A stretch of 64,000 bases of DNA, from contig JAPKZO010000019.1 in the NCBI GenBank assembly GCA_026393755.1, positions 1 to 64,000 of the forward strand. Direction: 5' to 3'. Source of the stretch: Acidobacteriota bacterium. GTDB lineage: Bacteria > Acidobacteriota > Vicinamibacteria > Vicinamibacterales > JAKQTR01. This document shows, in pieces, positions 31,778 through 45,121 of this stretch. The stretch's first letter is position 1. Each line of letters starts with the position of its first letter. A program made the translations under genes and the position numbers. The notes beneath the pieces were generated by a model. It had not been told where the DNA came from. It ran no database searches and saw only the letters and a program-made list of their open reading frames with translations.

Positions 31778-31904
31778 GTCATTCCGGCGAAAGCCGGAAT
31801 CCCCGACTTCGCTCGTTGGGCTTCGTCGAGGTCTCGCCATAGCGCTTCGCGCGGAGGCGGACAGCCGTGTACCTCTCTGGACCCTGGCTTGCGCCAGGGT
31901 GACG
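31778..31904. repeat. Two type 1 palindromes in the pyrG-kdsA gap
   Basis: ATTCCGGC-GAAA-GCCGGAAT lies at 31781-31800 and CCCTGGC-TTGC-GCCAGGG at 31882-31899, the latter framed by TGGA and TGACGAGTCC like the copy at 8297. They fill most of the 162-base gap between pyrG and kdsA on the minus strand and may separate the two transcription units. Confidence 0.7.
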
Positions 31905-41227: not shown

Positions 41228-41354
41228 GGGGTCGGGACGAATTATCGGCAAGGTCTCGTTCGGATTACAATTCTGTCGTCTTCTAGGGAATCACTCGGGG
41301 CGACTACAATCTTGTCGCGAGAGATCCACAGCGACAATATTTCGGTCCGACCCC
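41228..41354. repeat. 127-bp palindromic element, copy 1 (before iadA)
   Basis: The left end GGGGTCGGGACGAAT and right end TTTCGGTCCGACCCC are imperfect inverted copies. The inside is also partly symmetric and repeats a TACAAT-CT-GTCG motif. The copy at 43981-44107 has the same length and aligns over both outer ~55 bases. The element ends 17 bases before GTG 41372. It has no coding capacity and looks like a MITE or mobile leader element. Confidence 0.75.
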
Positions 41355-41371
41355 TTCCACTGAGGGAACCC

Positions 41372-42547
41372 GTGTTACTGCTCAAGAACGCCGACATCTA
41401 CGCGCCTGCGCAGATCGGTCGTGGCGACATCCTCGTGGCGGGCGGACGCATCGTGCGCGTGGAGCCCGACATCCGAATCCCCGACGAGTACTGCGATGTG
41501 GTGGATGCGGGAGGATTCATCGCGGTGCCGGGCCTGATTGATGGGCACGTCCACGTGACGGGCGGCGGCGGGGAGGGCGGGTACGCGACTCGCACGCCTG
41601 AGATGCCGCTCTCCGATGCCGTGCGCGGAGGCGTGACGACGGTCGTCGGATGCCTCGGAACCGACGGCGTGACGCGCAGCCTCGCCGGGTTGCTCGCCAA
41701 GGCGAGGGGCCTCGAAGCGGAAGGCATCAGCACCTTCATCTACACGGGCCATTACGCCGTGCCGGTGTATACGCTGACGGGAAGTATCGAGCGCGATCTG
41801 CTGCTCGTCGACAAGATCATCGGCGTCGGCGAAGTGGCCCTGTCCGATCACCGATCCTCGCAGCCGACCTTTGATCAGTTCGCGCGCCTGGCCGCCGAGG
41901 CCCGCCGGGGCGGGATGCTCTCGGGCAAAGCGGGCATCGTCAACGTGCACATGGGGGACGGGCCGCGGGGTCTCGCGCTCATCCGGCGTGTGGTGGAGGA
42001 GACCGAGATTCCGATCAGGCAGTTTCTGCCCACCCACATCAACCGGAATCCGACCCTCTTCGAGGAGGGGATCGCGTATGCGAAGTCCGGCGGCCTGGTG
42101 GATCTGACCACGTCAACGGTTCCCGCGTTCCTTGCCGAGGGCGAGGTGAAGTGCAGCGCCGGCCTGCGCGCCATGATCGAGGCTGGCGTCGACGTCTCAC
42201 ATATCACGTTTACGTCGGATGGACAGGGCAGCCTGCCGGATTTCGACGCGCAGGGGCGGTTGCGGCGCCTCGAGATCGGGCGGGTGACGAGCCTGTTCGC
42301 CGAGGTTCGCGACGCCGTGCGCAGCGAGCGGGTCCCCCTCGAGATTGCGCTGCAGGTCGTGACCTCGACGCCGGCGCGCATCCTGAAACTCAGCGGGAAA
42401 GGGGCTCTGGCGGCAGGTGCTGACGCGGACATCGTCCTGCTCGATCCGGGCGATCTCGCGATCTGCGGCACGATCGCGAAGGGACGCTGGCTGATGCGGG
42501 ACCGGCACGTGCTGGTGAAGGGGACGTTTGAATGGCCTGACGTATGA
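41372..42547 (+). CDS. iadA: Isoaspartyl dipeptidase
   Basis: IadA hydrolyses isoaspartyl dipeptides that come from damaged proteins. The 391-residue length matches the E. coli enzyme (390). The amidohydrolase fold shows VVDAGGFIAVPGLIDGHVHV (HxH metal site) followed by TGGGGEGGYATRTPEM, VVGCLGTDGVTRSLAGLLAK, TYTLTG-like VPVYTLTGSIERDLLLVDKI, VGEVALSDHRSSQPTFDQFA, FLPTHINRNPTLF and FTSDGQGSLPDFD. GTG 41372 is the start because GAGGGA sits just before it and upstream codons come from the repeat element. Its stop overlaps ATG 42544, the former coupled start of the transporter gene. Confidence 0.92.
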   Translation: MLLLKNADIYAPAQIGRGDILVAGGRIVRVEPDIRIPDEYCDVVDAGGFIAVPGLIDGHVHVTGGGGEGGYATRTPEMPLSDAVRGGVTTVVGCLGTDGVTRSLAGLLAKARGLEAEGISTFIYTGHYAVPVYTLTGSIERDLLLVDKIIGVGEVALSDHRSSQPTFDQFARLAAEARRGGMLSGKAGIVNVHMGDGPRGLALIRRVVEETEIPIRQFLPTHINRNPTLFEEGIAYAKSGGLVDLTTSTVPAFLAEGEVKCSAGLRAMIEAGVDVSHITFTSDGQGSLPDFDAQGRLRRLEIGRVTSLFAEVRDAVRSERVPLEIALQVVTSTPARILKLSGKGALAAGADADIVLLDPGDLAICGTIAKGRWLMRDRHVLVKGTFEWPDV

Positions 42548-42561
42548 CGACTGAGAGAACG

Positions 42562-42587
42562 CCGCTGTTCGCCCCCGCTGTTCGCCC
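42562..42587 (+). repeat. 13-bp perfect tandem duplication at the transporter 5' end
   Basis: CCGCTGTTCGCCC occurs twice head to tail (42562-42574 and 42575-42587). Removing one copy would join ATG 42544 in frame to the transporter frame. As present, ATG 42544 reads into a different frame. Confidence 0.85.
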
Positions 42588-42595
42588 GGCTGGTG

Positions 42596-43981
42596 ATGCC
42601 TCACACGCTTGTGCTGGTGATGGTGCTGGTCATCCTGGTGGTCGCGGTCTCGTGGGTCGTCCCCTCCGGGGAGTACCAGCGCGTCAAGGTGCAGACGAGC
42701 GAGGGGACGCGAAACATCACCGTGGCGGGAACCTACCGCGAGGTGCCCAAGGTGTACCTCGGGCCGCAGATGGTGCTCGAATCGCCGATCAAGGGATTCA
42801 TGGACGGCGCCCTGCTCATCTGCTTCCTGCTGGTGATTGGCGGCAGTTTCGCGATCTTCCAGGAGACGGGAGCCGTCGAATCAGGCATCCATCGGCTGAC
42901 CGATGCCATCAGCGCCCGGCCGTATCTCGAGTGGATTCTGATTCCGCTGCTGATGACGATCTTCTCGCTGGGCGGCTCCGTGTTCGGCATGTCCGAAGAG
43001 GTCATTCCGTTTGTGATGATCTTCATCCCGCTGGCGCGCCGCCTCGGCTACGACTCGATCGTGGGCGTGTCGATCCCGTTCCTCGGCGCCGCTGCCGGCT
43101 TTGCGGCCGCCTTCTTCAATCCCTTCACGGTCGGCATCTCGCAGAGCATCGCGGGAATCCCGCTGTACTCCGGGCTCGGGTACCGTCTGGTGTCGTGGGT
43201 GATCGGCACCGCGGTGACGATTGCGTACGTCGTGTGGTACGCGCGGCGGGTCAAGCGGAATCCCGAACTGAGCCCGGTGCGTGATCTCGATCTCCAGCGC
43301 GAGGCTGTCGCTTCACACGGTGTGGCCGATGCCGGGTGGGATGCCAGGCATGTCGCCGCGCTGTCCCTCTTCGTCGCCTCGATGGTGCTGCTCGTCGTGG
43401 GCGTGCTCAAGTGGCAGTGGTACATCGACCAGATTGCCGTGCTGTTTCTCGGGATGGGGATCGTGATCGGACTGGTTGGCGGCCTCGGGCCAAGCCGGAT
43501 TGCCCGCACCTTCGTCGCGGGCGCCAGGGACATGGTCGGCGTGGTCTTTATCGTCGCGTGCGCCCGTGCATTACTCGTCATCGCGCAGGAAGCGAAGATT
43601 CTCGACACGATGCTCTACGCGGCGTCCGGCACACTGTCGCTCCTGCCGGTCGGCGTGATCGCGCAGGTGATGTTCCTCATCCAGTGCGTGATCAATTTCT
43701 TCATCCACTCCGGCACGGCGCAGGCCGCCCTGACCATGCCCATCATGGCGCCGCTGGCGGATCTGGTTGGGATTACACGGCAGACGGCGGTCTATGCCTA
43801 CCAGTTGTGCGAATTCATCAATCCGATCCTGCCGACCAGCGCTGTCACCATGGGCGTGCTCGGAGCGGGGAAGATTCCGTGGGAACGGTGGGCGAGATGG
43901 TTCTTCCCGCTGATGCTGATTCTGACCGTGCTGAGTTTTCTGCTGCTCATCCCCCCTGTGCTCCTGTTCCGCTGGGAGTAG
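42596..43981 (+). CDS. YfcC-type basic amino acid/C4-dicarboxylate-like transporter
   Basis: The 461-residue membrane protein starts with MPHTLVLVMVLVILVVAVSW, then VVPSGEYQRV, and has about eleven helices. Conserved parts are LLICFLLVIGGSFAIFQETG, FGMSEEVIPFVMIFIPLARR, FFNPFTVGISQSIAGIPLYS, VINFFIHSGTAQAALTMPIM and LCEFINPILPTSAVTMGVLG, as in the YfcC/ArcD-like (DcuC-related) family. It probably moves amino acids or peptide products. It directly follows the dipeptidase iadA, which suggests uptake of or exchange with the released amino acids. A 13-bp duplication removes the coupled start at 42544; GTG 42593 or ATG 42596 remain. The protein may thus lack about ten N-terminal residues. Confidence 0.82.
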   Translation: MPHTLVLVMVLVILVVAVSWVVPSGEYQRVKVQTSEGTRNITVAGTYREVPKVYLGPQMVLESPIKGFMDGALLICFLLVIGGSFAIFQETGAVESGIHRLTDAISARPYLEWILIPLLMTIFSLGGSVFGMSEEVIPFVMIFIPLARRLGYDSIVGVSIPFLGAAAGFAAAFFNPFTVGISQSIAGIPLYSGLGYRLVSWVIGTAVTIAYVVWYARRVKRNPELSPVRDLDLQREAVASHGVADAGWDARHVAALSLFVASMVLLVVGVLKWQWYIDQIAVLFLGMGIVIGLVGGLGPSRIARTFVAGARDMVGVVFIVACARALLVIAQEAKILDTMLYAASGTLSLLPVGVIAQVMFLIQCVINFFIHSGTAQAALTMPIMAPLADLVGITRQTAVYAYQLCEFINPILPTSAVTMGVLGAGKIPWERWARWFFPLMLILTVLSFLLLIPPVLLFRWE

Positions 43982-44107
43982 AGGTCGTGACGATTCATCG
44001 ACAAGGTCTCGTTCAGATTACAATTCTATGGTTCTGTCTGTTGGCGTGAGCGCCCGTTGCGATTCTGTAACGAGAAAAGCATGCCGACACTGATTCGTCC
44101 CGACCCC
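43981..44107. repeat. 127-bp palindromic element, copy 2 (before the DUF362 gene)
   Basis: Left end GAGGTCGTGACGATTCATCG and right end GATTCGTCCCGACCCC mirror each other. The stretch CAAGGTCTCGTTCAGATTAC followed by AATTCTA is almost the same as in copy 1. It begins at the last base of the transporter stop codon and ends 15 bases before ATG 44123. Confidence 0.75.
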
Positions 44108-44122
44108 CTATCCGGAGGACGT

Positions 44123-45121
44123 ATGGTACGGCTGGCTAGCGACCTCGACAGGCGTGATTTCATCCGCGTCGTGACATCAGGCATGGCGCTCCTGCCGGCC
44201 CTTGGCACCTCGGGGTTGGCGCAGGTGCTGGGACCTCGTCGCAGCCGGGTGGCGATCGTCAGGACCACCGATCGGAAACGGGGCGTGACCGACGTCCTCA
44301 AGTTGCTGAACCTGAAGGCCGTCAAGGGCAAGAAGGTCGTCATCAAGCCGAACTTCAATTCGGCCGATGACACGCCCGGATCGACGCACAACGACACGCT
44401 GTCCCAGCTCGTGACGGAACTGCACGCGCTGAACGCCCGCGGCGTGACGCTGGGCGAATCGAGCGGGCCTCCGCAGACCCAGGGCGTCATGGAGAAGAAG
44501 GGCACGTTCGATCTCGCCAAGCAGTTCCGCTTCGACATCGTGGACTACGAGCAGAACACCGAGAAGGACTGGGTGACGTTTCCGGCGGCCGGCTCCCACT
44601 GGTCCGAAGGGTTCACTCTGCCGCGCCTGATCGTCGATGCCGAGTACACGGTATCGACCTGCTGCCTCAAGACGCACGGGTCTGGCGGCGTGTTCAGCAT
44701 GTCGCTCAAGCTCGCCGTCGGGCTGACGCCCAAGTCGATCCGGCGGGGCATGCATCGGTCGCCCGACATGCGTCGGATGATTGCCGAGCTCAACACCGGC
44801 TACAGACCGAACCTCATCGTGCTGGATGGCGTGGCCGCGTTCACCGACGGCGGACCCTCGCGAGGCGAGTTGAAGGCGGGCAACGTGATGATCGCCGGTG
44901 ACGATCGCGTCGCGGTTGACGCGGTCGGCGTCGCGGTGCTCAAGTCGCTGGGGGCCAATCAGGCGATCATGGGCCGTAAGATCTTCGAGCAGGAACAGAT
45001 CGCGCGTGCTGTCGACCTGAAACTCGGCGTGGCGAGTGCGGACGCGATTGACCTGGTGACGGGCGATGCCGACAGCAAGGCCATGGCCGACACCCTCAGG
45101 CCCATCCTCGCCGAGGGGTAG
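44123..45121 (+). CDS. DUF362 family protein with twin-arginine signal
   Basis: The 332-residue protein has a Tat-type signal (LDRRDFIRVVTSGMALLPAL), so it should be exported folded, probably with a cofactor. The DUF362 domain shows VVIKPNFNSADDTPGSTHND, VTLGESSGPPQTQGVMEKKG, STCCLKTHGSGGVFSMSLKL, NLIVLDGVAAFTDGGPSRGE and GDDRVAVDAVGVAVLKSLGA. In this family the Cys and Asp/Asn residues bind metals or Fe-S clusters in some members, but function is not established. No ferredoxin domain is attached here. ATG 44123 follows CCGGAGGAC closely. A repeat element lies just upstream. Confidence 0.85.
   Translation: MVRLASDLDRRDFIRVVTSGMALLPALGTSGLAQVLGPRRSRVAIVRTTDRKRGVTDVLKLLNLKAVKGKKVVIKPNFNSADDTPGSTHNDTLSQLVTELHALNARGVTLGESSGPPQTQGVMEKKGTFDLAKQFRFDIVDYEQNTEKDWVTFPAAGSHWSEGFTLPRLIVDAEYTVSTCCLKTHGSGGVFSMSLKLAVGLTPKSIRRGMHRSPDMRRMIAELNTGYRPNLIVLDGVAAFTDGGPSRGELKAGNVMIAGDDRVAVDAVGVAVLKSLGANQAIMGRKIFEQEQIARAVDLKLGVASADAIDLVTGDADSKAMADTLRPILAEG

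Follow-up and report, generated by a model that had tools for sequence, protein, structure and literature searches.

The two 127-bp palindromic elements of the window (the whole 64,000-nt stretch of DNA that was analyzed) are, judging from sequence, very probably relics of a non-autonomous "TIR-dimer" or REPIN-like family that was mobilized by a RAYT-like, single-domain HUH/Y1 transposase, a TIRYT. The elements, their parts and the neighboring genes are located as follows:

41228..41354, no strand: element copy 1, 127 bp, in the spacer between a divergent OEP/TolC-type gene (- strand) and iadA (+ strand)
41228..41242, + strand: copy 1 left end, GGGGTCGGGACGAAT
41265..41278, no strand: copy 1 left inner dyad, TTACAATTCTGTCG, starting at nt 38 of the arm
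41304..41317, no strand: copy 1 right inner dyad, CGACAAGATTGTAG on the - strand, starting at nt 38 of the arm
41340..41354, - strand: copy 1 right end, GGGGTCGGACCGAAA, with 3 mismatches to the family end
41372..42547, + strand: iadA, beta-aspartyl (isoaspartyl) dipeptidase (TIGR01975), a neighbor outside the element
42593..43981, + strand: gene of a yfcC-like carrier (PF03606, DcuC), a neighbor whose natural stop codon abuts copy 2
43981..44107, no strand: element copy 2, 127 bp, in the tandem (+) spacer between the yfcC-like gene and the DUF362 gene
43981..43995, + strand: copy 2 left end, GAGGTCGTGACGATT, with 3 mismatches; it begins on the G of the yfcC TAG stop
44018..44031, no strand: copy 2 left inner dyad, TTACAATTCTATGG, its right half eroded
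44057..44070, no strand: copy 2 right inner dyad, TTACAGAATCGCAA on the - strand
44093..44107, - strand: copy 2 right end, GGGGTCGGGACGAAT
44123..45121, + strand: DUF362 protein gene (PF04015), a neighbor

The preliminary description of this DNA reported two copies of equal length with differing centers, and both points were confirmed: each copy measures 127 bp and the centers are 29% identical, which is the chance level. It further stated that the outer ~55 bases of both sides align; the left arms are 82% identical over 55 nt and the right arms 62%. Over 50 nt the left arms match at 86%, compared to at most 50% for the same arm against 1.9 kb of unrelated window sequence, and a whole-genome search gave E = 5e-10 for the match. 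The 15 nt at the start of copy 1 recur without mismatch, in inverted orientation, as the 15 nt at the end of copy 2. The copies do end just before start codons, 17 nt before the iadA GTG and 15 nt before the DUF362 ATG. The other side of copy 2, missed in the first reading, starts within the TAG stop of the upstream carrier gene (43979-43981; element from 43981). Elsewhere in the window, an 84-bp stretch (31784-31866) shares 89% identity with a segment next to an unrelated element of the congener (L132:244-326); it is not a tRNA and looks like another dispersed intergenic repeat, with the core CCCCGACTTCGCTCGTT...GTCTCGCC.

A whole-genome search recovered further copies, so the two are not a lone pair. 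After inspection, the window genome (G000) holds 10 family loci, seven paired and three with single arms. Allowing up to 2 mismatches, the end pattern was counted 29 times in it, against 4 for the reversed control. Of 60 relatives scanned, the four that belong to the same family of Vicinamibacterales (G001-G004) had the end in abundance, and these sister genomes contain dozens of family loci. A scan of the order (162 genomes) added only two further genomes, from another family (f11), with a single 127-bp element at the same locus in both (L085/L223 in G034, L087/L224 in G051). This is a stationary copy inherited vertically, and it is all that the f11 genomes add toward an independent test of element length in distant lineages. 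Public genomes scanned with both ends placed the family in Vicinamibacterales/Acidobacteriota records and also gave a different, GGGGCCGGGACCCAT-ended palindrome in Bradyrhizobium. Palindromes from this distant phylum (L050, L052, L053, L056 and others) are 103-118 bp long, end in ATTGCGCACGGGGGCCGGGACCCAT and share the GGGGYCGGGAC start but lack the dyad. The window genome itself has further palindromes with GGGGTCGG ends whose interiors differ (G000:C6:171653, L035; C32:34203, L044; C17:191682, L033; C35:34114, L046), and these are probably other TIR families.

Each family arm has two parts, the end motif AGGGGTCGGGACKAATTACG and the inner dyad GATKACRRWWYYGTMATC, and two arms face each other across a variable center. 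The 78 long-form arms align gaplessly. Positions 1-11 (GGGGTCGGGAC) are almost invariant, positions 12-19 read KAATTACG and positions 20-37 are nearly free; after position 37 comes the 18-bp palindromic dyad, whose 14-nt core begins at nt 38 in most arms (68 of 78) and at nt 32-39 in the remaining ten. The center of the dyad is asymmetric, and its core stem is of 5 bp with frequent mismatches. The base just outside the GGGG is A in 61 of 65 stop-facing ends and in 31 of 41 start-facing ends. Many partnerless single arms with end and dyad intact were observed in one sister genome (G003; L109, L110, L114, L116-L122, L128-L130 and others), their GGGG end mostly abutting the stop codon of a gene that runs into the arm. 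At another locus (L079:5545-5708) a truncated arm is duplicated directly before a complete 117-bp element, with a 47-nt offset, and at two more (L131:1501-2166 and L096:957-1515) matching inverted ends lie ~666 and 559 bp apart.

The proposal that the copies are MITE-like was borne out: the family is dispersed and sharp-ended, related copies lie in unrelated flanks, an orthologous locus is element-free, and a transposase gene lies within the same ends in two sister genomes. The interiors of related copies are ~70-83% alike while their surroundings are unrelated, homology stopping at the element ends. For example, a window-genome copy (C9) aligns to one of the congener (G001 C3) over 119 bp, ending within 1-2 nt of the element, and window copy 2 likewise aligns to G001 C3. 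None of the window elements was found at its orthologous locus in the sister genomes, where the best-matching copies are at other loci. Terminal identity in related pairs is 94%, against 70% for the interior, a contrast that is partly ascertainment, as copies were found by their ends, yet also fits ends kept for a host function. Target-site duplications, for which the preliminary description had proposed a search, were seen in 0 of 40 elements at 3-8 bp and in 1 of 40 at 2 bp (1.6 expected), and neither offset duplications nor inverted flanks exceeded chance in these 40 elements.

The congener has the same iadA-yfcC-DUF362 gene order, with a YfcC 94% identical, and lacks both elements in the sequence compared. 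Since YfcC ends at the same residue in the two genomes, it was not cut short by copy 2. Upstream of DUF362 the congener has a 67-nt spacer, whereas in the window 15 nt lie outside the element, indicating that insertion was accompanied or followed by spacer loss or divergence. The element-free yfcC-DUF362 site is not base-precise, which counts against movement by a TIRYT.

In two sister genomes, elements of ~1.0 kb carry the same arms, dyads included, around a single Y1/HUH transposase gene of the RAYT/TIRYT kind:

G003:C66, 5771-6771: Y1 gene-bearing element, 1001 bp
G002:C4, 14499-15502: Y1 gene-bearing element, 1004 bp

The two transposases are 59% identical to each other, and both match PF01797 and, just below its cut-off, NF047646 ("REP-associated tyrosine transposase"); the closest solved structure, and the only solved relative, is TnpAREP (4er8). 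No homologue of the sister-genome transposase was detected in the window genome. The same arms thus flank a gene of this kind in two sister genomes and occur without one here, which argues for TIRYT-derived non-autonomous elements, and the window copies appear to be orphan relics of a gene that survives in the sister genomes. Further Y1 genes of the order lie between different inverted GGGGTC-type ends, which seem to be a mark common to this transposase branch. RAYT-like genes of the order (L161, L166, L169, L170, L172, L173) have inverted GGGGTCGGGAGCC, GGGGTCAGACCC, GGGGTCAGATCC or GGGGTCAGGTC flanks, some in tandem arrays.

The transposase would recognize the end motif and the dyad in both arms and cut just outside the GGGG, beside the conserved A. 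The unit would then move as an excised or copied strand, leaving no duplication. Later loss of the transposase gene from the window genome would have left the copies stationary and decaying. Less firmly, both arms may at some stage be bound on the same face of the duplex, as suggested by a dyad-to-dyad spacing that changes in ~10.5-bp steps.

These steps were seen in the lengths of 44 long-form elements, which fall at 114-117 bp (30 elements) and 126-128 bp (10), with one each at 137, 180, 199 and 102 bp; lengths of 118-125 and 129-136 bp are empty among them. The extra bases of the longer elements sit between the dyads. Class offsets from 116 bp are 11, 21, 64 and 83, for which the best period among 8-13 bp was 10.5 bp (p = 0.003 for the four classes; 0.024 with the off-phase 102 counted), a post hoc test in which copy numbers are inflated by shared descent. 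Window copy 2 (127 bp) and its G001 relative (116 bp) show a net difference of 11 bp with 83% interior identity. On the other hand, a pair in G002 (102 and 128 bp) differs by 26 bp, a counter-example to phasing. In a short class of 73-75 bp the arms are reduced as well, with the dyad at nt 24-25, and the two dyads adjoin. The length steps suggest, speculatively, duplex DNA held on one helical face, and such phasing would not be expected from a strand-type HUH transposase alone, a point against the transposase reading as stated. A Y1/HUH-linked miniature element in which both arms need the same face of the duplex, with assembly across both dyads on double-stranded DNA by the enzyme, or by a host protein that shares its sites, is a rather doubtful extension. 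Such assembly would contrast with TnpAREP and IS200/IS605, which are known to recognize strand hairpins, and would account for both the whole-turn length changes and the retention of ends and dyads in stationary copies.

The genes around the elements, called by a simple codon-usage gene caller, showed nearly all family copies to be intergenic. Among 36 paired elements with both neighbors called, 11 lie between convergent, 20 between tandem and 5 between divergent genes. Stop-facing ends are mostly -18 to +6 nt from the stop codon, while start-facing ends lie anywhere from overlapping the gene to 505 nt away; in tandem settings the smaller gap is on the stop side in 16 of 19 untied cases (p = 0.004). 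In ten cases the element end itself supplies the stop codon (GGGGTCGGGACTAA, gap -14). This bias is not evidence of function, since selection against promoter breakage could give the same result.

That the elements are instead host-maintained DNA sites, a nucleoid-type or regulatory protein binding the paired arms on the duplex and looping the DNA between the dyads, with carriage by a transposase secondary, is unlikely. Such sites would agree with the conservation of ends and dyads over diverged interiors, with a palindromic dyad of degenerate, largely independent half-sites, with the ~10.5-bp length steps, with the well-conserved single arms and with the crowding at stop codons. However, a transposase gene is flanked by the same arms, the family is nearly confined to one bacterial family, copies move from one locus to another, no protein emerged as a candidate, and the phasing is broken by the off-phase 102-bp copy and by the other spacings of the 73-75 bp class. 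A reading of the dyads as BlaI/MecI-type operators was considered and set aside.

The preliminary description had also considered a recruited 5' leader or promoter and a selected RNA structure. The compensating change it noted in a small hairpin (CGAC/GTCG in one copy, CGTT/AACG in the other) is literally present in the two window copies, but it has no family-wide signal. Dyad columns pair in 72.6% of cases, against 70.3% in shuffles (31 of 500 shuffles reach the observed value), so that pairing is only marginally above shuffles; no clear covarying helix was found and the selected structure was not supported. Arm identity at positions 20-27 is 0.484 within an element and 0.477 between elements of the same genome, and at positions 28-37 it is 0.374 and 0.382. 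The arms of one element being no more alike than those of different elements, no long stem is maintained. An outer stem reaching past the ends was rejected on this same equality, and an RNA helix on the family-wide pairing counts, the arms not being co-paired.

Retention of the elements at iadA and DUF362 for control of these genes is improbable. In its favor, both copies end 15-17 nt before start codons, and copy 1 now fills the space in which most relatives have a TANACT-type motif, ~35-45 nt upstream of iadA (a motif read by eye, which leaves the promoter idea weak). Against it stand the wide range of start-facing distances, the converging genes around 11 of the 36 paired elements, the lack of clear covariation and the congener without the element; moreover, an Rfam scan matched nothing and promoter and terminator scans gave nothing above chance. 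Recruitment is thus no family property, ends crowding stop codons more than starts, and holds at most locally, at the two window loci. The copies now occupy the iadA leader and the yfcC-DUF362 spacer, where any effect would be secondary. A MITE of a DDE transposase (IS5, Tn3 or a similar family), already disfavored, is extremely improbable: the GGGG-starting terminal inverted repeats and MITE-like size fit, but target-site duplication is not above chance at any length of 2-8 bp and the gene within the same ends encodes a Y1/HUH transposase. ERIC, Correia/NEMIS and similar bacterial MITEs, compared in general features, are likewise ~100-150 bp, intergenic and palindromic overall; the present family differs from them in having no target-site duplication, a Y1 transposase link and another host.

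A TIRYT origin places the family in a class known in outline. As described in the accessible parts of the literature, TIRYT/TIRtron repeats occur as singles, dimers and clusters, Koribacter versatilis being one of the examples (Rocco et al. 2013, PMC3733652; PMC6006769), and the arrangement is assigned mostly to RAYT subclass 2.1 (PMC6006769). Like these systems as there described, the family has a RAYT-like Y1 gene between inverted GGGG-starting repeats (G003:C66, G002:C4) and the same repeat dispersed gene-free, as singles and dimers. Its end reads GGGGTCGG, which has 7 of the 8 positions of the TIRYT motif GGGGWSAS given in the accessible text of PMC3733652. The family differs from what those sources describe in having the nt-38 dyad as another conserved part of the arm, in its helix-turn-like length classes and in the orphan population of the window genome, a same-genome transposase being usual, not obligatory, for TIR repeats. 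As far as we found in the available TIRYT/TIRtron texts, neither the two-part arm nor the quantized spacing is described. The family also resembles the REPINs of RAYTs (Bertels and Rainey 2011, PMC3116915) in its inverted conserved ends, variable spacer, extragenic location and link to a RAYT-type gene, but its arms are not co-paired beyond the ends and its spacing is quantized. REPs are defined, in the portion of PMC6006769 consulted, by a GTAG or GTGG placed 0-2 nt ahead of a hairpin of 7-20 bp that is fully paired; the arm consensus of the present family shows no such foot next to a hairpin of this kind.

TIRYTs form a large, little-studied branch of RAYT transposases whose end recognition is not described in the sources available to us, as far as we found. 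In the present family a putative recognition site of two parts comes together with a cognate gene and tens of natural variants, and leads to one specific prediction, the helical phasing of the arms. Should phasing hold, models of how Y1 elements move that build on strand hairpins only would miss this branch. The window genome also offers a natural example of repeats that outlived their transposase.
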